From Cyanobacteria bacterium FACHB-471 (lineage in GTDB: Bacteria; Cyanobacteriota; Cyanobacteriia; Elainellales; Elainellaceae): a DNA stretch of 64,000 nt. Shown here piece after piece: positions 21,696 through 47,642 of this stretch (position 1 is its first letter; every line of letters begins with the position of its first letter). The stretch is taken from assembly GCA_014695345.1 (NCBI GenBank), contig JACJOC010000098.1, positions 124,001-188,000 of the forward strand, given 5' to 3'. The position numbers and the translations under genes are program-made. The notes beneath the pieces were generated by a model. That model ran no database searches. It was not told the DNA's origin and saw only the letters and a program-made list of their open reading frames with translations.

Positions 21696-21818
21696 ATGCG
21701 ATTTAACGATCGTCGCCAAACTTCACAACTGATAGAAGTTGAGCTAACTCCCATGCTAAATTCGCAAACGCATTCTCTCAGAAGATCTGGTGCAAACCTA
21801 CGTCAGAGCGCTGGATGA
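21696..21818 (+). pseudogene. exbD: exbD stump (5' end only)
   Basis: An ATG at 21696, 16 bases after the exbB stop, opens a 40-codon frame. It begins MRFNDRRQTSQLIEVELTPM, matching the N-terminus of cyanobacterial ExbD (usual form MRFK.R...MPEVNLVPMMD). After about 21 codons the similarity ends where the membrane helix should start, and the frame runs through unrelated codons to TGA at 21816-21818. That end overlaps the 3' end of the convergent RCK gene. A deletion that removed the rest of exbD is the simplest reading. Confidence 0.7.
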
Positions 21819-22520
21819 AGCAACTTCTAGAGTTGGAAGACGATTAGTGCAAAGGCCCATGAAGTCGATCATCTTGTGAACTAAATCAGGTTTAGTCACG
21901 ACGAGAATTGTTGAGCCAGCTTCCAAGACCGTGCTGCCATTTGGAATGATCAAATCAGCACAGGAATGGCACTGGTAGCCAATCATCAATGAGCCTTTGG
22001 GGAAGCTGGGGTCTTGAGCAACGTGGGCAACGGTACGCCCGGTAATGTAGCAGTTAGCCGGAACCGGCAGTTTTAACACTTCTACCTGCCCCTGCTCAAA
22101 GTGCATCATCGACTCCACTTCGGGGTATTCGATCGCATTTGCCATTGTCGTGACAGCCAGGTCAATCGTGCTAATCACATGATTGGCTCCGGCGATGCGG
22201 TAAGGTTCAAAGAAATCCTGTTCGCTCATTCGCACGACGATGTGAGGCACCCCGTAGTGCTTAGAAAGCGTCACCATCGCTAGGTTCAAGGCATCGCTGC
22301 TGAGCGTTGCTGCGACTGCATCGGCTTTGCGAATTCCGGCTTCTAACAAGACCAAGGTGCTGACCGCGCTGCCCTCAAAGGCCATTACGCCAATTTTTTC
22401 ACGGGCAAATTGGCATGTCAGAGGATCGGTGTCAATGATGGCAACGGTATGCCCCATTTCTAACAAGTTTTGAGCCAAGCGCAACCCCATCATGCCAGCG
22501 CCACCAATGAGGACATACAT
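21798..22520 (-). CDS. TrkA-family potassium-uptake regulatory protein (RCK domains)
   Basis: 240 residues. The N-terminal Rossmann fold starts at residue 1 with MYVLIGGAGMMGLRLAQNL (nucleotide-binding GxGxxG) and an acidic residue closing strand 2 (IIDTD). It is followed by a TrkA-C-like domain (about 145-225). RCK proteins bind NAD(H), ATP or c-di-AMP and gate Trk/Ktr K+ uptake. No channel subunit is nearby. The 3' end overlaps the exbD stump by 21 bases. It lies 19 bases after the DUF3082 gene on the same strand. Confidence 0.9.
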   Translation of the reverse strand: MYVLIGGAGMMGLRLAQNLLEMGHTVAIIDTDPLTCQFAREKIGVMAFEGSAVSTLVLLEAGIRKADAVAATLSSDALNLAMVTLSKHYGVPHIVVRMSEQDFFEPYRIAGANHVISTIDLAVTTMANAIEYPEVESMMHFEQGQVEVLKLPVPANCYITGRTVAHVAQDPSFPKGSLMIGYQCHSCADLIIPNGSTVLEAGSTILVVTKPDLVHKMIDFMGLCTNRLPTLEVASSSALT

Positions 22521-22539
22521 GTTGATTCATCTCCTAAAC

Positions 22540-23063: not shown

Positions 23064-24023
23064 TCAAACAATACGAATGCCGCCAGCCCTAAACTGCGTC
23101 ACCCAGGTTTGTAAATCTGGATCGGGCAAAGCAGCCTGAATCTGCTGTTGCAAATGTTTTGCCTCTGCCTGGGACTCAGCCAGGGCAAAGACCGTTGGAC
23201 CCGACCCTGACATCATTGTCCCTAGCGGATTGAACTGCTGTATTGTTTCTCGCAACTGAGCCACCTGCGGGTGGGCAGGCAGGACGACTTTTTCCAAATC
23301 GTTGTGCAACAGCTTACCGATTTTGGAACTGTCATGATGCATAATCGCAGCCACAATTTCACCCGCATGGGCACGCTGCTTTGGCGTAGCCGATGTTCCG
23401 ACAGCGGAACCCGTTGTGGAAACAGGGCTATAGGAATCGCCAAACTGTTTACGATAGGTCTGGTATGCCCAAACCGTCGAAACGCTGAGACTGTGGTACT
23501 TGGCTAGCACAGCATAAAGGGAGTTAATGCTGGGCAGCGGTGAAAGCTGTTCGCCTCGTCCGGTGGCGATCGCCGTCCCTCCTGCGATGCAAAACGGGAC
23601 GTCTGACCCCAACTTTGCGGCCAAATCCTGTAGCTCGCCTTGAGTCAGTCCTAACCCCCAAATCAAGTCAAGTCCCACCAGCACGGCTGCGCCATTGGTC
23701 GAGCCACCCGCCAACCCAGCCCCAACCGGAATGTGCTTGTGAATCGTGATATTTACTCCGCCATACTGCTCAAATGCATTTGGGAACTCTGCTGCCATCA
23801 GCAAGGCCGCTTTGTAAGCCAAATTGCTCTCATCAGCAGGCACTTCGGGATGATCGCAGTGCAGCCGAAACTGATCGACCCCATTGGCATTGAGATCGAT
23901 TCGATCTGCCAGATCAATTCCCTGGAGAACCATTGCCAGCTCATGATATCCATCAGGGCGATCGCCAATAATTTCCAGGTAAAGGTTGATTTTAGCCGGG
24001 GCAATCAGGGAGTAGGAGCGCAT
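23064..24023 (-). CDS. ispE: 4-diphosphocytidyl-2-C-methyl-D-erythritol kinase
   Basis: 319 residues. It begins MRSYSLIAPAKINLYLEI, typical of the family. The GHMP-kinase ATP loop is PVGAGLAGGSTNGAAVL (about 97-113), and GSDVPFCIAGGTA and MMSGSGPTVFAL mark the substrate and third GHMP motifs. It phosphorylates CDP-methylerythritol in the MEP pathway for isoprenoids (carotenoids, phytol, quinone side chains). In related cyanobacteria ispE follows rsmA directly. Here about 1.8 kb of foreign and decayed sequence separates them. Confidence 0.96.
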   Translation of the reverse strand: MRSYSLIAPAKINLYLEIIGDRPDGYHELAMVLQGIDLADRIDLNANGVDQFRLHCDHPEVPADESNLAYKAALLMAAEFPNAFEQYGGVNITIHKHIPVGAGLAGGSTNGAAVLVGLDLIWGLGLTQGELQDLAAKLGSDVPFCIAGGTAIATGRGEQLSPLPSINSLYAVLAKYHSLSVSTVWAYQTYRKQFGDSYSPVSTTGSAVGTSATPKQRAHAGEIVAAIMHHDSSKIGKLLHNDLEKVVLPAHPQVAQLRETIQQFNPLGTMMSGSGPTVFALAESQAEAKHLQQQIQAALPDPDLQTWVTQFRAGGIRIV

Positions 24024-24210
24024 TGGAAGGATGAGGGATGAAGGATGAGGACGTGATACTAGTCTATTGTCTATCGCGATGGGTGACTAAGGACTAGTTG
24101 ATTTGCGCTCTTGACCTCATACTGTATTCCTTGTGGGCCAACGACTAGAGTGTGTCATGGCTCGTAATGGAGCTGTTATGCTGCGATCGCCACGCCGAGC
24201 AGGGTGAATC

Positions 24211-24432
24211 TTACAGAGCCCTGTTTAATGGCTGTTGAAGCTGTTGGAGTTCCTCAATTGACCGCGCCCTGTCACACGAGCAATAATTTCAATTGGCAGT
24301 CCTTCTCGCAACAAATTGTTAGCAATTTCTCTTTGCTTTCTTACCGCTGCTGCTTCCTGAGTAGACTAAATAGATCACTGACTTTTGCATGGAGAAGTGT
24401 TCCGCAAGGAATCGGCAGGTATCGTCGTACAT
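24211..24432 (-). pseudogene. Rpn-family (PD-(D/E)XK nuclease) remnant with internal deletion
   Basis: ATG at 24432 starts MYDDTCRFLAEHFS, the standard N-terminus of a large cyanobacterial Rpn-like nuclease/putative transposase family. After about 20 codons the sequence jumps to that family's C-terminus in a shifted frame (REIANNLLREGLPIEIIARV). A further frameshift is needed to read SIEELQQLQQ before the stop at 24211-24213. The catalytic centre is entirely deleted. Intact members are about 250-300 residues long. Decay fits the accessory block between ispE and rsmA. Confidence 0.72.
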
Positions 24433-24514
24433 GGATGGCTTGTACAACTCGTGATACCCACCTGACTTTGGCTTAAATTTAACTAAATTCTGATACTTTG
24501 CTAAACACTCAACG

Positions 24515-24602
24515 GCATAACGTTTGCAATCACCGGACGCAGACAAACTTTGCAACTTAACCAACTATATTGAAACGTTCCGGTGCAGTGCGATTGTTAG
24601 GC
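24515..24602 (-). repeat. attC-like integron recombination site (site A)
   Basis: An 88-base imperfect palindrome. Read on the minus strand it starts with GCCTAAC (24602-24596, inverse core RYYYAAC) and ends with GTTATGC (24521-24515, close to core GTTRRRY). Inside, TGCACCGGAACG pairs with CGTCCGGTG, leaving a bulged base, as in attC sites. The 36-base centre is not paired. It lies 3' of the GC-rich hydrolase gene in the orientation expected for a gene cassette. A second GTTATGC occurs at 25656-25662 (minus), bounding a unit of about 1.15 kb. The core has one mismatch to GTTRRRY (T at position 5). The identification is structural. Confidence 0.65.
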
Positions 24603-24703
24603 GGTGTTTCTACTATGAGGTCCGACGGGGCCGACGCGTCCCCGGCTAACATGGCGCTTCGCAAATCTTCTTCCCGCACCCGGACTTCATGCACGTCGCT
24701 CAT
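24557..24703 (-). pseudogene. 5' fragment of a DUF4440/NTF2-like gene
   Basis: ATG at 24703-24701 overlaps the hydrolase stop (ATGA), so the two were translationally coupled. The peptide begins MSDVHEVRVREEDLRSAMLA and continues GDASAPSDLI, the usual start of SnoaL-like/DUF4440 proteins. Similarity then stops and the frame runs into the attC-like site (TAA at 24557). Only about 30 of the roughly 130 residues expected remain. It was truncated when the cassette end formed or afterwards. Confidence 0.6.
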
Positions 24704-25458
24704 TTCGATTCCTCTGCGAAAAGATCAAGAACCGCTCGCCATGCGCGCTCAGTGTGTTCTGGGTGATAGCCGGCACCTGGCACGGTCGATTGAACATGCG
24801 TGAGCCCTTCGGTCGGCGATCCATCCGAATTTGTCGGGCGAGCCCAAAAGGCGTGCTGGGCACCGCCATAGATGTTTACGCGCCAGTCAACCCCGGCATC
24901 CTGTAATGCGTGACCAAATGCGAGAAGTTGGTCGGGAGTGCAAAGCGGGTCCTCGGAGCCAGTACAGAGGAGGATAGTGCTGTTTATATCGCGCCAGTCC
25001 TGGGCATCAGGTTCCGGCAGGCCGGGATGAACGACCGCGATGGCCTTGAAGGGTGCGCCTGTTTTCGCAAGCTCAAGGACGATATGGCCGCCAGCACCAT
25101 AGCCGAGAGCCAAGAGCCGGTTGGCGTCAACATCAGGTGTCGCGAGGAGAACGTCCAGCGCTACGCGACCAATAGCCCGCATCCGTCCAGCGTCGGACAA
25201 CAAGGGCATGACCCGAGCCAACATCGCGTCGGGTCTGCCAAAGAAGGTCTGTCCGCCGTGAAAGTCCATCGCGAGTGCAACATAGCCGTGCGCGGCGAGA
25301 TCATCAGCGCGGCCCCGCTGGTAGTCGTCAAGACCAACGCCGTCGTGTCCAATGAGAACTGCGGGCCAAGGACCCTCGCCGTGCGGCCGTGCTAGATGAG
25401 CGACCATGTTCAGTCCGTCTGCGTCGTAGAAGACTTGGGAAGTTGTGATTTCGTGCAT
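24700..25458 (-). CDS. Dienelactone-hydrolase-family protein lacking the nucleophile Cys, foreign composition
   Basis: 252 residues of alpha/beta-hydrolase fold: HDGVGLDDYQRGRADDLAAHG, MDFHGG, the nucleophile-elbow region LALGYGAGGH (118-125) and GAQHAFW. DLH enzymes use Cys in GxCxGG. Here residue 121 is Gly (GGT), while the likely acid Asp170 and His202 remain, so hydrolase activity is doubtful. The gene is clearly richer in G+C than its neighbours and has no GCGATCGC site in 759 bases, against many nearby. The start ATG 25458 follows GAGAGG. With the DUF4440 fragment and attC-like site it forms a cassette-like unit. Transfer from a GC-rich bacterium is likely. Confidence 0.88.
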   Translation of the reverse strand: MHEITTSQVFYDADGLNMVAHLARPHGEGPWPAVLIGHDGVGLDDYQRGRADDLAAHGYVALAMDFHGGQTFFGRPDAMLARVMPLLSDAGRMRAIGRVALDVLLATPDVDANRLLALGYGAGGHIVLELAKTGAPFKAIAVVHPGLPEPDAQDWRDINSTILLCTGSEDPLCTPDQLLAFGHALQDAGVDWRVNIYGGAQHAFWARPTNSDGSPTEGLTHVQSTVPGAGYHPEHTERAWRAVLDLFAEESK

Positions 25459-25484
25459 ATCTTACCTCTCGTTGCTCGCGGAAT

Positions 25485-25607
25485 CCACACTTGGTACACG
25501 TCGGCATCCATCGCATTCTGAATCGATTCAAAAACTGGAGTCCATGCCCGAAGCGAAAGACGAACAATAGCATCAAGATGCTGAGGAGTGTATTGTTCAA
25601 TTTGCAT
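25485..25607 (-). pseudogene. 5' fragment of a GNAT acetyltransferase gene
   Basis: ATG at 25607 encodes MQIEQYTPQHLDAIVRLSLR and then AWTPVFESIQNAMDADVYQV, the N-terminus of a GNAT-family acetyltransferase. Similarity stops at about residue 41, where family members usually read YPDWR. The sequence changes there to the leader of the GC-rich hydrolase gene. No C-terminal GNAT part is seen on the far side of the block. The break marks a recombination junction. Confidence 0.6.
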
Positions 25608-25655
25608 TTCGAGATGGAGTTTAGAAGACGCCCAAGGATTGTAGATAATTAAGCC

Positions 25656-25815
25656 GCATAACTATTAATAGACTGAAATTTTCCGCATAAGATCCTAATG
25701 GTTGGTGGATAGGCAGAATGGTTCTGCACAACACACCGAATCTGCATAATAAGCAGATTATTTCTGCATATTATGCAGATTAAGCTAAACAGCTAGAATC
25801 TTTCCGCATATTTAC
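25656..25815. repeat. Six spaced GCATA-type motifs with a 41-base hairpin
   Basis: Motif (C/T)(C/T)GCATAA or close variants occurs with GCA at 25656, 25685, 25726, 25744, 25766 and 25806. The spacings are 29, 41, 18, 22 and 40 bases. Positions 25740-25780 form a near-perfect hairpin: 12-bp arms (ATCTGCATAATA / TATTATGCAGAT), one A-A mismatch, a 5-bp inner stem and a 5-base loop. It sits between the end of rsmA and the GNAT fragment. It could be an operator array or a recombination-site remnant. Confidence 0.6.
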
Positions 25816-25816
25816 C

Positions 25817-26641
25817 TCAGTCCTTAACTTCTTCTGCTAACTGATTACTCAATGCCACCCAATTCTCGACGCTTAAATCTTCGGCGCGGGCTTGGGGGTT
25901 GATTTCGAGTTGTTCTAGTAACTGGTTGAGGCGATCGCGCTCCACCACACTCATCAAGTTATTTCGCAACATCTTACGCTTTGTCGCAAACCCCAGCTTC
26001 ACCAAAGTTTCCAGCTTACGAACATTGGTTACAGGCAGATGAAACTGGCGTGGACGCAATCGCACGACAGCGGAATCAACTTTGGGTGGCGGCTGAAAGG
26101 CTTTAGCCGTGACATCACAAATCCATTCGCACTCGGCTAAATACTGCACTCGCACCGATAGCGCCCCGTAGTTTCTGGAGCCGGGACGGGCACACAGCCG
26201 CAGGGCTACTTCTTTTTGCAACAGCAGCACGATCACGTCAAAGGGGTGGGGGTTTGGGGTGGCTATCGCTCCCAACAGCTTTTCTAAAATCGGACCAGTA
26301 ATGTTATACGGAATGTTTGCAACCACTTTGTTGGGCTGCTGAAAGTCTGGAAATGCCAACAGTGCAGCCTCTAAATCAAGGGAAAGGATATCTCCCTGGA
26401 GCAGCAAGAAATGATCAATTTTGCCTAACTTTTCTACTAGCAGCTTGCATAAATCTCGGTCAATCTCAACGGCAACTACCGCTGCTGCCTTTTCTAAAAG
26501 CGGTCGGGTTAAGGCTCCTCGACCAGGTCCAATTTCTAAGACGCGATCGCCCTCCACTAACCCCGCTGCTGCCACAATTTTCTGCAACGCCTTTTCACTA
26601 CGCAGCCAGTGTTGTCCAAATTGTTTACGAGCTTGAGGCAT
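25817..26641 (-). CDS. rsmA: 16S rRNA dimethyladenosine transferase
   Basis: 274 residues. It begins MPQARKQFGQHWLR, followed by SAM motif I VLEIGPGRGALT (35-46), an acidic residue after strand 2 (VEIDRD) and the catalytic NIPYNI motif (109-114). The C-terminal helical domain is complete. RsmA dimethylates two adjacent adenosines near the 3' end of 16S rRNA during small-subunit assembly. It is transcribed towards ispE, its usual neighbour, but is now separated from it by the cassette block. Confidence 0.96.
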   Translation of the reverse strand: MPQARKQFGQHWLRSEKALQKIVAAAGLVEGDRVLEIGPGRGALTRPLLEKAAAVVAVEIDRDLCKLLVEKLGKIDHFLLLQGDILSLDLEAALLAFPDFQQPNKVVANIPYNITGPILEKLLGAIATPNPHPFDVIVLLLQKEVALRLCARPGSRNYGALSVRVQYLAECEWICDVTAKAFQPPPKVDSAVVRLRPRQFHLPVTNVRKLETLVKLGFATKRKMLRNNLMSVVERDRLNQLLEQLEINPQARAEDLSVENWVALSNQLAEEVKD

Positions 26642-42176: not shown

Positions 42177-42309
42177 AGCATTTCTCAAGCTTGCTCAAAT
42201 CCTACTTGATTGAGAATTGATATGGATTTAACAGAGTCACCAGAATCTTCGGACAGGTTTTAGACTGAAGGAAGTCAGTCTGAACGAATTGAGTCGGAGA
42301 GAAAAGCGC

Positions 42310-43698
42310 GTGGTTATTTCTATTGCTTCCATGCAAGATCGTCTGCTAGATGCGATTACGCCTTACCGCGATCGCGTCGATTACTTAGAAATTCGACTAG
42401 AGCAGGGTGAGGCTAGCGTCATTTCCTATCGCGGGGCGCAGTTGGATGCGGTAGACCGCAGCTTTTCTCTGTCGGGTGGGATTCGCGCCTGCCACAAAGG
42501 TGGCTGGAGTTTTGTCACGTTCAACGGGTTGTCTGAGCTAAAGGGACGGATTGAAGAAGCGATCGCCCAGGCTCACTTAGTCGGCAGCGAAACCACACAG
42601 CTAGCCGATGTGGAACCCATTCAAGATTACGTGTCGGTAAAGTTTGGCAGAGATCCTAGAGGCATTTCCTTAGAGGAAAAGCGGCAACTGGTTGAGCGCT
42701 ACAATCAACTGTTGCTGGATACCGATCCGCGCATTCAAACGACGATGTCAGGGTATAGCGATCGCTTTAACACCACCTATTTCGTCAACTCTCTGGGCAC
42801 CTGCATTGCACAAGAGCGGCTGGATGTCTCTGGCAGATTTGGCGTGATTGCTAGAGGCGAAGGTGGCGTGGTGCGTCAGGGGTTTGAGTCGATTCACTCT
42901 CGCTCTGACTACAACGTGCTGCTGGGCGCTGAGGATCGGGTTCATGATGCGGCAAAGCGAGCAATCGGTCAGCTTGATGCAACGTCGGTTAAGGGTGGAC
43001 AGTACACCGTTCTGCTTGACCCGTATCTGGCAGGCGTGTTCATTCACGAGGCGTTTGGGCATCTCTCGGAAGCAGATTTTGTTTACGAAAATCCCAGGAT
43101 GCAGGAATTGCTGGTTGTGGGCAAACCTCTTGGGATTCCTCAACTGAATGTGGTAGACGATGCCACGATGCCTGACCTCCCAGGTTCCTTAAAGTATGAC
43201 GATGAGGGCGTTCCGGCACAGCGCAAGTTTTTGATTAAGGACGGCGTGTTGACCCAGCGCTTACACAACCGGGAAACCGCAGGCAAGATGCACGAGCAGC
43301 CAACGGGCAACGCACGGGCAATGAATGCGACCCATCCGCCAATTGTGCGAATGACGAATACCGGAATCGAACCAGGCGATCGCACCTTTGAGGAAATGAT
43401 TGGCGACATTGAGGAAGGAGTTTACGCCGTTCGCATGTTGGGCGGACAAACCAACGGTGAGATGTTTACCTTTGCGGCGGCTGAAGGCTTCATGATTCGC
43501 GATGGCAAGATTGCTGAACCTGTCAGCGATGTCACCCTCAGCGGCAATGTCTTCCAGACGTTGAAGGATATCGAGGCGATCGGTAGTGATTCTGTTTATA
43601 CCAATGGCGGCTGTGGTAAGGGCGGACAATCTCCTCTTCCTGTCAGCGTTGGTGGTCCTCACGTTCGGATCAAGAATGTTGTTGTAGGCGGACGCTAA
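42310..43698 (+). CDS. tldD: TldD-family metalloprotease
   Basis: 462 residues from GTG 42310, which has GGAGAG eight bases upstream. A TTG (42289) and an ATG (42331) are alternatives. The TldD hallmark HEAFGHLSEAD holds the zinc ligands (His246 and His250 region), and the C-terminal domain ends GGQSPLPVSVGGPHVRIKNVVVGGR. TldD pairs with TldE/PmbA to process peptides such as modified natural products and CcdA. TldE is not in the window. No precursor peptide gene is adjacent. Confidence 0.93.
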   Translation: MVISIASMQDRLLDAITPYRDRVDYLEIRLEQGEASVISYRGAQLDAVDRSFSLSGGIRACHKGGWSFVTFNGLSELKGRIEEAIAQAHLVGSETTQLADVEPIQDYVSVKFGRDPRGISLEEKRQLVERYNQLLLDTDPRIQTTMSGYSDRFNTTYFVNSLGTCIAQERLDVSGRFGVIARGEGGVVRQGFESIHSRSDYNVLLGAEDRVHDAAKRAIGQLDATSVKGGQYTVLLDPYLAGVFIHEAFGHLSEADFVYENPRMQELLVVGKPLGIPQLNVVDDATMPDLPGSLKYDDEGVPAQRKFLIKDGVLTQRLHNRETAGKMHEQPTGNARAMNATHPPIVRMTNTGIEPGDRTFEEMIGDIEEGVYAVRMLGGQTNGEMFTFAAAEGFMIRDGKIAEPVSDVTLSGNVFQTLKDIEAIGSDSVYTNGGCGKGGQSPLPVSVGGPHVRIKNVVVGGR

Positions 43699-43780
43699 AG
43701 TAGCTGGCGATCGCACATCAAGGAAGTTGCGGGGTGGGTGAGATAGCCCACCCTGTTACTGTGTTTACTGTGTTCAATAA

Positions 43781-43830
43781 AACGGTGCGTTTGCTTGTCA
43801 GCAATGCACCCTACAAGATGGCGATCGCAC
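43781..43830. repeat. 50-base direct repeat, left copy (flanks TA module)
   Basis: A 50-base sequence starting aacggtgcgtttgcttgtca. It is 47/50 identical to the copy at 44483-44532. It contains an imperfect hairpin (GGTGC...GCACC). It ends exactly at the stop codon of the DUF5615 gene. A 7-bp GC hairpin (GGGTGGG/CCCACCC) lies just to its left. Confidence 0.85.
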
Positions 43831-44168
43831 TAGTCTCCGCTAATTTCAACTAAATCTTCACCAGATCGAAGAAGCTCTAGGGCTTCTAGCAAAGTAGTAC
43901 TCAAAATTTCCTGCAACCGAGCATTTGAGGTGTTTCCGCATGTCAACCAGATAATTTGTGGTGGCGAGCCAAGGCGATCAACTAGATCAACAAAATCACT
44001 GTCTTTAGTCATGAAGATAACGTCTTGAGCCTTTGCTGCCTCAAAAATCTCAAGATCTTCAGCGTCTCTCAAATCAACATCTCGCAAAGCTAATGCTGTT
44101 ACTCCAAAAGCGCTGCTAATCCAAGTTGCGATCGCAGGCGACAAATGCGCGTCTACCCAAATTGTCAT
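43830..44168 (-). CDS. DUF5615 PIN-like toxin
   Basis: 112 residues. It begins MTIWVDAHLSPAIATWI, with Asp6 in the first acidic position of the PIN-like fold. It then has ALRDVDLRDAEDLEIFEAAK, MTKDSDFVDLV and PPQIIWLTCGNTSN, the DUF5615 pattern. It is presumably an RNase toxin paired with the DUF433 protein, whose gene overlaps it by 4 bases upstream. The acidic residues needed for metal binding look intact. Confidence 0.9.
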   Translation of the reverse strand: MTIWVDAHLSPAIATWISSAFGVTALALRDVDLRDAEDLEIFEAAKAQDVIFMTKDSDFVDLVDRLGSPPQIIWLTCGNTSNARLQEILSTTLLEALELLRSGEDLVEISGD

Positions 44169-44389
44169 GCAACCAGCACTGGATGATTAAGCTTACGTGA
44201 GGCGTATAGAAAGGCTGCCTTCAGATCATCAGCTTCTAAATCAGGCATCTCTTCTAAAATTTGCTCAGCACTCAGTCCTGCCGCAAATAAATCCAGTACA
44301 TCCGAGACTCTAATTCTCATACCTCGAATGCAAGGACGACCACCGCATTGTCTTGGATTAACCGTGATTCTCTTAAGCAAATCTGACAT
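44165..44389 (-). CDS. DUF433 antitoxin
   Basis: 74 residues. RITVNPRQCGGRPCIRGMRI is the DUF433 signature, followed by a helix-turn-helix-like stretch RVSDVLDLFAAGLSAEQILE. AGGAG lies nine bases before the ATG. Together with DUF5615 it forms a type II toxin-antitoxin operon. The whole operon is flanked by 50-base direct repeats. Confidence 0.92.
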   Translation of the reverse strand: MSDLLKRITVNPRQCGGRPCIRGMRIRVSDVLDLFAAGLSAEQILEEMPDLEADDLKAAFLYASRKLNHPVLVA

Positions 44390-44482
44390 GTGGCTTTACT
44401 CCTAAGTTCTCCTCCATATCAACACTATCGTAATTGAGCATTGAATATTTTTGAGGAGGGGACAGGTTAGTATGCTCAACAC

Positions 44483-44532
44483 AACGGTGCGTTTGCTTGT
44501 CAGCAACGCACCCTACAGGATGGCGATCTCAC
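44483..44532. repeat. 50-base direct repeat, right copy (flanks TA module)
   Basis: 47/50 identical to 43781-43830, with differences at three single bases (t/c, a/g, g/t). The two copies are 702 bases apart and enclose the DUF433-DUF5615 genes and their promoter. The sequence type resembles dispersed cyanobacterial palindromic repeats (ggtgcgtt...aacgcaccctac). Confidence 0.85.
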
Positions 44533-44687
44533 TTTTCACGTAAGTCTGAAAGTATTGCATTCGAATCGTAGTTGGCGGCGATCGCCAATGTGAAAGAAAT
44601 AGTAACAGTTTAAGTAGAAGCAATACCGGGTTTCTTTGCAACGAGCCAGTTGACAGCTATGAGCGATCACACTCTTATTCTCTGAGT

Positions 44688-45674
44688 TCACGGCACCATA
44701 ATTACATGGGTTATCACACGGGGCAACGTAGAGTAGAATGAGTAGTCTCTGCTCCATCTATATGCATCCACGTCTACACCCTCTTTCACAAAAATTAGGA
44801 ACAGTAGTACACGAATGTTTCCATTGCGTTTGTAGAATCGTGCAAGGCCATCAAGGGTCTTCACCACCTCTGCCTTCTTGCCGTTGCTGTCAATAAACTT
44901 CATCTCGACGATTAACTGATTGTCAAAGAAAGCAAAGTCCGCACTCTTTCTCTGCTCATCATAAATGACGGTCACTTCTTCACGTGCAATAGATGGCAGC
45001 CACGGTTTCACAACAGTGTAAAAGAGGTTCTGGCAATCGTACTCTGATTTCAGATTAACTGTCCAACTATCCTTTGCTGCACCTCGTTGTCCGAGATCAG
45101 TTGGCTTCAGTATCATGCGTTTGGCAATTTCAGTCAGCATAGCAGTAGCCTTATCAACGGTATCACCAATGAATGGACAAACAGGTAGCCCTGCATCTTC
45201 TGCACGCTTGATCATGTACTGCCAACTAAGTTCTCCTACGCTCCCATCGGGTAGTACCGTAGCCGCAAAGTTTACTGTTCCGCCAACTTCGAAAACCCAT
45301 GAAACTGGAGGCTCAGTAAATCCATCCTGAGCACTCCAAAGCAACAACGCATCTAGTTTTTCAACTAGTTCCTCAAAGGCATCAGCCCACACGTAGCTGT
45401 CGTTCATACAACTAATGGCTCGTCCGCCTTCAGCAATGAAGAAGTCAAGTGCACGGCATTGAGTAAGTGCGAAATCACGTAGAGCGCTGGCCTTGACGTA
45501 CTCTCCCTGCTTAACGCGAACGAGAATATCACAATCGGAACGCAGGCTCTGTGTACCATAGGCTCGCGAACCAAACATCCATAACTCAGCAATACTGACC
45601 TGCTCGTCTACTAACTCGCTTAGAAGTAATTTGAGATTGTACTTAACGTGTGTTGGTTGTTTCCCAAGCGGCAT
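44688..45674 (-). CDS. Nucleotidyltransferase fused to a PD-(D/E)XK nuclease-like domain
   Basis: 328 residues. The N-terminal domain has the nucleotidyltransferase motif FGSRAYGTQSLRSDCDILV (Gly35-Ser36, Asp47, Asp49). A middle helical part (about 75-195) may be its lid. The C-terminal domain has a restriction-nuclease pattern: Glu211 in LKSEYDCQNLFYTVVKPWLP, Asp246 in RKSADFAFF and Glu257-x-Lys259 in LIVEMKF. All catalytic residues seem present. I know no named family with this fusion. It resembles MNT-like antitoxins and defence nucleases. It follows the attC-like site B on the same strand, 81 bases after the core, so it may be a second integron cassette, although no attC was found after it. 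Confidence 0.8.
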   Translation of the reverse strand: MPLGKQPTHVKYNLKLLLSELVDEQVSIAELWMFGSRAYGTQSLRSDCDILVRVKQGEYVKASALRDFALTQCRALDFFIAEGGRAISCMNDSYVWADAFEELVEKLDALLLWSAQDGFTEPPVSWVFEVGGTVNFAATVLPDGSVGELSWQYMIKRAEDAGLPVCPFIGDTVDKATAMLTEIAKRMILKPTDLGQRGAAKDSWTVNLKSEYDCQNLFYTVVKPWLPSIAREEVTVIYDEQRKSADFAFFDNQLIVEMKFIDSNGKKAEVVKTLDGLARFYKRNGNIRVLLFLIFVKEGVDVDAYRWSRDYSFYSTLPRVITHVIMVP

Positions 45675-45755
45675 AGTAGCAAGAATCTTGTTTTAGGGGT
45701 GCGGATGCGATCGAGTGTGAGGTACTGTCCAATTCTTTATTTGGTCAAATGTTCT

Positions 45756-45842
45756 GCCTAACGGCACAGTTGAGCGGCAACTGACCAGTTTGAAGGCAAC
45801 ACCAGGAGCTTCGTTTGTCCGCTCCAACGCCGTGTTTCGACC
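45756..45842 (-). repeat. attC-like integron recombination site (site B)
   Basis: About 87 bases directly 3' of the interrupted gene. Minus-strand core GTTAGGC (45762-45756) fits GTTRRRY exactly. Plus-strand GTTGAGCGGCAA (45769-45780) pairs with TTGTCCGCTCCAAC (45815-45828) over 12 bp, leaving two extra bases on one arm, as attC sites do. The outer part GCCGT.TT continues the pairing less well, and the inverse core is degenerate. An identical GTTAGGC lies 37 bases upstream of the gene (46607-46613). Gene and site thus fill an 850-base cassette-like unit. Confidence 0.7.
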
Positions 45843-45849
45843 GCAACCG

Positions 45850-46569
45850 CTACGGTGGACCCTGTAACAACTTATCGATAGCACCTTCAAGAAGCTTCTG
45901 TCCTGGTTTAGAAGATAACGCACGAACGCTGAGAGCGTACAACTTACTACATGCAGTTCTAAACCAGCTTCGCTTCGACATATTGCGAGTTGCTCGTGCA
46001 AGATCAGCAATAACCCCTCGGATTTCTTTAAGTTCAGCTTTCGTCAAGGTACTTTCTTTTTCAAGTTCCGTAACTCGTTCCTAAAATTGATTTAGTTTCT
46101 CATAAAGATCAGCACGCTCTTCTTCAGAGAAATGTGCATTTTCATCATCTATATGTTCATCAAGCCGTTTATTCAATTCGTCCTGAAAATGCTCTAGACG
46201 CTGCTGAAATAAATTAACTAAAAGGTATTCGTTTTTTATTCGTTCAGTCCAGAGGCGTAATGCATCAAGAAATTTAGCAAAAGACTCAACTTCATGACTT
46301 TCTACTTCAACAAAATCGCCTGATGCTTGCTCTACCTTAAGAATGCGAACCTCCTGCATACCGGTTATCGCTGTCAGTGCTAGAAGAGAACTAGGACGTT
46401 TGGTAGCGTAGCGAAGTTCAATGAAATATTTATCGTTATCACAAAATTGAACTAGAACAATTCTATTTTGATCTTCTGAAGTTTCTACAGTGAAGCCTGC
46501 GGATGTGAAGAATGATTCATCAAGGATATCTGAAACTTGGGCTAAACGAGTTTTGGTTAGCTTTGGCAT
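45850..46569 (-). pseudogene. Cassette gene of unknown function split by one in-frame TAG
   Basis: A 162-codon frame from ATG 46569 stops at TAG (46083-46081). The same frame then stays open for 77 more codons to TAG at 45852-45850. Reading through gives a 239-residue protein. The N-terminal half is alpha/beta (VSDILDESFFTSAGFTVET; KYFIELRYATKRPSSLLALTA). A coiled coil spans the stop (ERADLYEKLNQF*ERVTELEKE), and a basic helical tail follows (KRSWFRTACSKLYALSVRAL). A single C-to-T change of CAG would create the stop. The first half could still be made. A TTG restart at 46047 is possible. The family is unknown. Confidence 0.72.
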
Positions 46570-46606
46570 AATGCAGAATCATTCGGCACTGTAGATTTTG
46601 AATCCA

Positions 46607-46613
46607 GCCTAAC
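46607..46613 (-). other. Core site at the 5' boundary of the cassette-like unit (candidate attI or secondary site)
   Basis: GTTAGGC on the minus strand, identical to the core of attC-like site B, 37 bases before the cassette gene start. It lies between that gene and the integrase remnant, where attI is expected in an integron. No strong palindrome surrounds it, which also fits attI. Confidence 0.5.
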
Positions 46614-46789
46614 TCATGGTTACTGAATATAGCCCTGCTAAAACTGAACAAGTATTAAACTCTAACAAAAAACTTTGCAGCTACATCACCCCAAAAGGAA
46701 GCTAGCGGTTGGACAATTTATTCTGCAAAATTTAACTGTACATCTAGATGTATGAGGTGAGCCGACGAATGCCTTGCTGTATATCTATC

Positions 46790-46923
46790 CAAGCACTCTC
46801 AGTAGGACACACGACATTTCACAGTGTAGGAACTGCTGAGGCACAAGACTGTAAGCAAGATGATCTACACGCACGTGTTGAACAAAGGTGAGTGTGAAGT
46901 ACGCAGTCCGCTGGATGAAGGGA
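46790..46923 (+). pseudogene. intI: IntI-type integron integrase, C-terminal remnant
   Basis: The clearest part reads HKTVSKMIYTHVLNKG followed by ECEVRSPLD (46841-46916), the C-terminal signature of integron integrases (MIYTHVLNRG..GVRSPLD), with the Tyr nucleophile present. Upstream, in shifted frames, are V-G-H-D-I and T-V-(stop)-E-L-L-R-H, matching GYDIRTVQELLGH. There is one TAG and small indels. A KHS before that may be left of RHSFATH. The rest of the gene is missing. It is divergent from the cassette-like unit, as intI is in integrons. The gene is dead. Confidence 0.75.
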
Positions 46924-46963
46924 AGGGGCGATCGCCCCCTCTTCACTCCTCTTTCCTCTTCTC

Positions 46964-47212
46964 TTACTCTCCCACTCTTCGATCGCGCACTAAGATACTC
47001 ATCACTTCACCTGTATCCGGTGCGGGTAACAATGGACTCCATGCGCCTACTTCGGCAAAGCCGCGACTGTGGAGTTCGTGAATGGTGCTGATTACGCCAT
47101 CACGGGAGCTAATAATCAGGACTCGAACTCGTTCGCGTTCAGGGAGCGGGATAGGAGCAGCTTCTCCCTCAACGGTTGCCCAGTTGAGGGATTCTAAGAA
47201 ACAGTGAGACAT
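46964..47212 (-). CDS. Conserved hypothetical small protein
   Basis: 82 residues from ATG 47212 (MSHCFLESLNWATVEG), with GGAG nine bases upstream. The frame is open from 47239. The central part LPERERVRVLIISSRDGVISTIHELHSRGFAEVGAWSPLLPAP looks like a compact alpha/beta protein, and VMSILVRDRR ends it. It seems to be a known cyanobacterial hypothetical family, but no function can be given. It lies between the integrase remnant and a repeat-rich stretch. Confidence 0.6.
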   Translation of the reverse strand: MSHCFLESLNWATVEGEAAPIPLPERERVRVLIISSRDGVISTIHELHSRGFAEVGAWSPLLPAPDTGEVMSILVRDRRVGE

Positions 47213-47255
47213 GAGTTGTGACTCCGTTAGGGTTTGCAAAGAAACCCCAAAAACC

Positions 47256-47377
47256 TAGCCACCCCACACTTATTCACGCGCTGCAAAAGTGAGTGGAGAA
47301 ACAAAAAGTGAGTAAACTCACTTTCATGTTCTAAAGGGTTTGCAACGCTTTTTTGACATGACAAGTCGGGGTGGCTA
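47256..47377. repeat. Nested inverted repeats with a central 20-base palindrome
   Basis: TAGCCACCCC (47256-47265) and GGGGTGGCTA (47368-47377) are perfect 10-bp arms about 100 bases apart. Between them AAAGTGAGT/ACTCACTTT (47305-47324) is a perfect palindrome with a 2-base centre. A third AAAAGTGAGT half-site lies at 47285-47294. GGGTTTGCAA occurs on both sides (near 47230 and 47336). Confidence 0.6.
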
Positions 47378-47642
47378 AGGGAGTGTTAAAATTCACCGTT
47401 AGCCGCCAGACTGCTTGTACCAGTTTGGGGGTTAGTCGCTCATTGCTGGTGTCAACAGCTTTGAGCGGCGCTAGATTCTTGGGTTTTGTCGGGTTGCTGC
47501 AAGTAAAAAAGACAACCTTGACGTGACAGCATATCTGAGTGAACGGTATCTCGTCAAGGTGGTAAGTTACGAAGTTTTTGAGGCAATGGGGAGGGCGATC
47601 GCTCCTCTTACCAGTATGTTTTCTAGAAAATGTAAACAAAAA

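Follow-up and report, generated by a model that had tools for sequence, protein, structure and literature searches.

A probable chromosomal integron remnant with an attI-like landing site, one gene cassette and no adjoining integrase between cyanobacterial ispE and rsmA

In the window, the whole 64,000-nucleotide stretch of a Cyanobacteria bacterium FACHB-471 contig analysed here, ispE and rsmA are separated by a block containing an attC-like site. How did such a block come to lie between these two genes without an integrase beside it? An earlier note on this DNA had regarded the block as an insertion between usual neighbours, perhaps a cassette captured at a secondary site. The first part agrees with the spacing elsewhere: the ispE–rsmA gap is 1,793 bp here versus 8–280 bp in 20 relatives. 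Since synteny with genomes G001 and G002 is disrupted around ispE, other relatives served as the source of the empty site; several relative genomes are fragmented. The note had also placed the block far from an integrase (intI) remnant, and that remnant lies at 46.8 kb. Window segments 21761–22521 and 42232–43700 are 20 kb apart here and lie ∼1.5–4 kb apart on one contig in G001:C380 and in G002:C555; thus, rearrangement has occurred in this region within the genus. Read on the minus strand, the locus runs from rsmA through an attI-like stretch, the cassette (GNAT fragment, DLH gene and attC) and a decayed spacer to ispE, with the following features.

23064–24023, minus strand: ispE, distal flank of the insertion (open reading frame; amino-acid identity 88% to G002 and 59–76% elsewhere in the family)
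24183–24514, minus strand: decayed spacer distal to attC (pieces resemble sequence that flanks an attC array of G002:C473 on its distal side)
24515–24602, minus strand: cassette attC, with R'' GCCTAAC at 24602–24596 and R' GTTATGC at 24521–24515 (model match and covarying stem)
24521–25661, minus strand: complete gene cassette of 1,141 bp, delimited by two G^TT crossover points (97.8% identical to L194 2798–3941)
24700–25458, minus strand: cassette gene of the dienelactone-hydrolase (DLH) family, 252 amino acids (Pfam DLH, E 5.3e-33)
25485–25607, minus strand: GNAT acetyltransferase gene, 5' fragment, joined to the DLH gene on its upstream side (homology to complete GNAT genes)
25656–25813, minus strand: putative attI, comprising the core GTTATGC at 25662–25656 and the intI-proximal region (homology to the attI/leader beside intI; profile)
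25813–25816, minus strand: junction of the attI-like stretch with the rsmA stop codon, where intI and its leader are missing (same junction in G002:C371)
25817–26641, minus strand: rsmA, proximal flank of the insertion (open reading frame; neighbour of ispE in 20 relatives)

The attC site was modelled anew, because an Rfam scan of the window gave no match. We built a covariance model on 36 sites that do not include the window site; it matched 24513–24602 on the minus strand with 80.4 bits and an E-value of 2.9e-18. The E-values of this model are rough, and the model is independent of the window site but not of its family, since most of its sites were collected through similarity to the window site. 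The only other match in the window is at 45754–45840 on the minus strand, with 44.1 bits. Iterated profile searches of the compared loci gave 78 matches, some of which are overlapping copies. Among 40 aligned sites, 11 of the 17 consensus pairs of the stem have at least one sequence changed on both sides with pairing kept, and the covarying hairpin carries conserved unpaired positions. The attC-like site that had been noticed at 24515–24602 is thus borne out by the model and by its co-varying arms. It lies downstream of the DLH gene (25458–24700, minus strand) in the same orientation, as expected of a cassette attC. The spacer beyond it holds two pieces with 78–81% identity to L111 3855–4362, which adjoins an attC there, and a short stretch past attC 24515–24602 is also common to G001:C286.

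The other end of the proposed unit is the repeated GTTATGC, which is present on the minus strand at 25662–25656. This heptamer or its complement GCATAAC occurs eight times in the window and is weak evidence by itself. The two cores gain meaning as the exact limits of a stretch of high identity to another genome. With the DLH protein as query, a scan of a genome collection led to the Leptolyngbyaceae MAG C42_A2020_001, where the whole cassette is present with 97.8% identity over 1,145 bp; the match starts and stops at G^TT cores, and the DLH proteins are 96% identical. The cassette-sized unit of about 1.15 kb is therefore 1,141 bp long (25661–24521, minus strand), with ends at the recombination cores of the MAG copy. 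In the MAG, the unit sits among other attC sites and cassettes and is preceded by another attC and followed by a DNA adenine methylase-like gene, the latter judged by eye. The ispE and rsmA genes of the MAG are only 69–75% identical in DNA to those of the window and lie 53 bp apart without an insert. The MAG contig ends close to the sister cassette, so the placement of this copy in the MAG could be a binning error. Found in a second context and bounded there by the G^TT cores, the unit is a real mobile gene cassette.

Regarding the contents of the cassette, the DLH gene has a GC content of 59.8% versus 49.9% for the window, and GCGATCGC is absent within 24183–25931, in line with the description of a GC-rich, HIP1-free gene. 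Upstream of it lies the GNAT fragment, of ∼40 codons versus 159–173 codons in same-genus homologues; 117 bp of it share 79% DNA identity with the complete GNAT genes of G002:C425 and G001:C46. The GNAT–DLH fusion is identical in the MAG copy, so this is a fused cassette that moved as a single unit; a GNAT cassette and a DLH cassette would have fused via loss of the intervening sequence. Neither of the two observations that the earlier note had set against its reading was made, that is, a block without attC similarity in relatives or an intact GNAT gene spanning the junction. No sigma-70-like promoter reading from attI into the cassette was found. The nucleophile elbow of DLH proteins is G-x-C-x-G. 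The protein encoded at 24700–25458 and its relatives have G-Y-G-A-G at the expected position; the whole subfamily thus seems to lack the usual Cys/Ser nucleophile. Other relatives of the DLH protein, with 82–89% amino-acid identity, occur in Sphingobium, Sphingomonas, Spirosoma and a Chitinophagaceae MAG. At these six non-cyanobacterial loci, DNA similarity extends no more than ∼50 bp past the gene, and no attC was found; thus, the DLH gene looks horizontally acquired. A plasmid BLAST yielded the first attI and attC matches and no second copy of the DLH gene.

What, then, received this cassette? Its upstream neighbour, 25656–25813, is 75–81% identical to attI/leader regions beside intI and matches the profile with 140 bits. 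Region 25643–25816 matches the interval between integrase and first cassette of an annotated integron on Kovacikia minuta pB, and the attI region also matches sequence beside full-length intI in G002:C32, G001:C266 and G015:C254. In Kovacikia pB, G002:C32 and G001:C266 it lies between the divergent intI and the first cassette, and the homology ends at the G^TT crossover. We compared this target with that of a secondary (attG-like) chromosomal site, at which a distant integrase would have placed the cassette without an integron ever having been at the locus. A real and mobile cassette without an adjoining intI would fit such an event; however, a secondary target should be unrelated to attI and attC, and the ∼155 bp of attI homology on the target side, matching integrons with annotated or full-length intI, goes far beyond the share of a secondary core site. 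Capture at a secondary site, as the earlier note had suggested, is thus not upheld and we regard it as extremely improbable. On sequence grounds 25656–25813 is best read as attI, and since the cassette adjoins an attI homologous to those of intI-linked integrons, the locus would be an integron of its own that has lost intI. In an alignment to intI leaders the window copy stops earlier than most others, so it may by now be an incomplete attI.

The attI element was matched in 21 of the 36 family genomes searched, and 59 copies were compared (57 in family genomes, two on Kovacikia plasmids), a set curated from the listed matches with our own thresholds. No intI was detected at 42 of these copies, a fragment at 11 and a full-length or nearly full-length gene at 6, the status of a few copies being assigned by eye. 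An element with up to eight strong copies per genome, some of them amplified along with an adjoining small gene, could also be an ordinary dispersed, MITE-like repeat that is not attI and that the cassette adjoins only incidentally. The geometry of the copies argues against this. At nearly all left ends a RYYYAAC core, itself variable, precedes a constant TATTAATAG-like stretch. Of the attC sites within 3 kb, 60 are on the cassette side and point the way predicted, with none reversed, and four are on the intI side. Beside intI, the element sits where attI belongs, between the divergent gene and the cassettes. A fixed right end, as in a MITE, was considered, but an intact attI–intI reference showed that the right ends differ between lineages around the intI leader, and a single common boundary was rejected. 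We therefore consider the repeat explanation very improbable. The variation of the right ends points to repeated, independent losses of intI in the family.

Some copies of the attI element have spread further. In G003 (L181, L191 and L192), G024 and G018, intI-less blocks of ∼0.7–1 kb that start at the attI core recur with 79–95% identity while the flanks on both sides are unrelated; some of these blocks have thus multiplied. G003 has a full-length intI elsewhere, and its three intI-less attI blocks are 93–95% identical with unrelated cassette sides. Many attI/intI copies in G024, G018 and G011 (e.g. L135, L158, L155 and L187) are accompanied by a small gene of ∼66–85 amino acids that has no match in Pfam or NCBIfam. 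The family of this gene counts 40 copies in G024 and 22 in G018, mostly away from the attI copies found, and the window open reading frame at 46977–47222 (minus strand) is related to it. The 1.2 Mb plasmid pA of Kovacikia minuta also has an intI-less attI (L079 3002–3181), with an attC ∼1.8 kb away on the cassette side.

When was intI lost at the window locus? The attI-like stretch extends to GCATATTT, followed by ACC and the rsmA stop codon. No intI, which a complete integron would have in cis, was detected beside it, and no intact intI was found in the genome, which is 99.87% complete. In G002, of the same genus, the rsmA junction is the same and the remainder of attI is gone; the junction match is 33 bp with 91% identity and an E-value of 8e-6. 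The rsmA genes of the two genomes are 86% identical in DNA. We infer that intI was lost at this attI before the split from G002. The cassette differs from its MAG copy by only ∼2%, so it would have moved without an intI beside attI. Alternatively, a complete integron took up the cassette in cis and lost intI only later. Decay of intI is common, as the 11 attI copies with fragments attest, and the window itself has a second intI remnant; on the other hand, the intI-less junction is shared with a genome whose rsmA is 86% identical, against ∼2% difference between the cassette copies, and even an old cassette exported to the MAG lineage would still have left without intI in cis. Uptake in cis followed by loss is thus unlikely.

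The second remnant belongs to another integron relic in the window, at 43830–47603. It comprises the attC at 45754–45840 (minus strand, 44.1 bits), minus-strand genes and a C-terminal intI remnant at 46806–46916 on the plus strand; near 46678 there may be a decayed start of intI, as judged by eye. A repeat at 46926–47603 follows the intI remnant and has many copies in G001 and G002; since this high-copy repeat forms the right-hand flank, synteny is uninformative there. We rejected the idea that this intI remnant at 46.8 kb and the ispE–rsmA remnant were once a single integron split in two, as the former has its own cassettes and attC.

Taken together, the ispE–rsmA block is very probably the remnant of a chromosomal integron with attI and one cassette but without intI, and its cassette was probably moved by IntI in trans after the loss. 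The attI beside rsmA would have lost intI before the divergence from G002, and the cassette would then have been inserted at, or exported from, this attI. The integrase would have been supplied in trans by another integron of the same cell or by an incoming plasmid, and the cassette would now be stranded unless an integrase comes back. Trans action is likely as judged from the sequence comparisons, among them the intI-less attI blocks of G003 with a full-length intI elsewhere in that genome.

Tentatively, and with somewhat less than even odds, we suggest that the integron of this family is distributed: many integrase-less attI sites per genome, some in self-multiplying blocks, cassettes exchanged between genera and a few intI genes serving all of them in trans. 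If so, finders keyed on intI and attC would miss the platform. One cassette has been caught at two places in divergent cyanobacteria, and the findings suggest that landing sites, beyond cassettes, may also persist and multiply without an adjoining integrase. A concrete attI profile for cyanobacterial integrons is now at hand, and trans service of orphan arrays becomes directly testable.

Finally, we compared the locus with known systems. Integrons and taxon-specific attC sites are already known in Cyanobacteria (PMC8618304, PMC8352920), and so are CALINs and their proposed origins, among them the loss of intI (PMC8618304). In the literature searched we found no dedicated study of cyanobacterial integrons or of orphan attI, which does not prove its absence. 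The locus has an attC without a neighbouring intI, as CALINs have, and may be described as an attI-headed CALIN that is best explained by an integrase in trans. However, CALINs are defined by attC alone, usually at least two, which is also the usual software threshold (PMC12444791), whereas this locus has a single attC and a recognisable attI head, and such heads recur at many loci per genome. The chromosomal integrons of Xanthomonas are likewise old platforms with intI lost or broken and the array frozen; there, the intI platform keeps to a single ancestral position at ilvD, and clusters of attC are found elsewhere (PMC12444791), whereas the cyanobacterial family has up to eight strong attI copies per genome, most of them without intI. 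In fused gene cassettes, two cassettes merge through loss of the intervening attC (PMC4670013); the window cassette also lacks most of its first gene (GNAT). Delta-attI-type cassettes of mobile integrons similarly show attI sequence involved away from its usual place beside intI, but there attI pieces replace attC at the 3' end of the cassette (PMC12901181), whereas here attI heads the array and the attC is normal. In summary, the kind of locus is known, and its attI-headed, intI-less, multi-site form is new within the literature searched.
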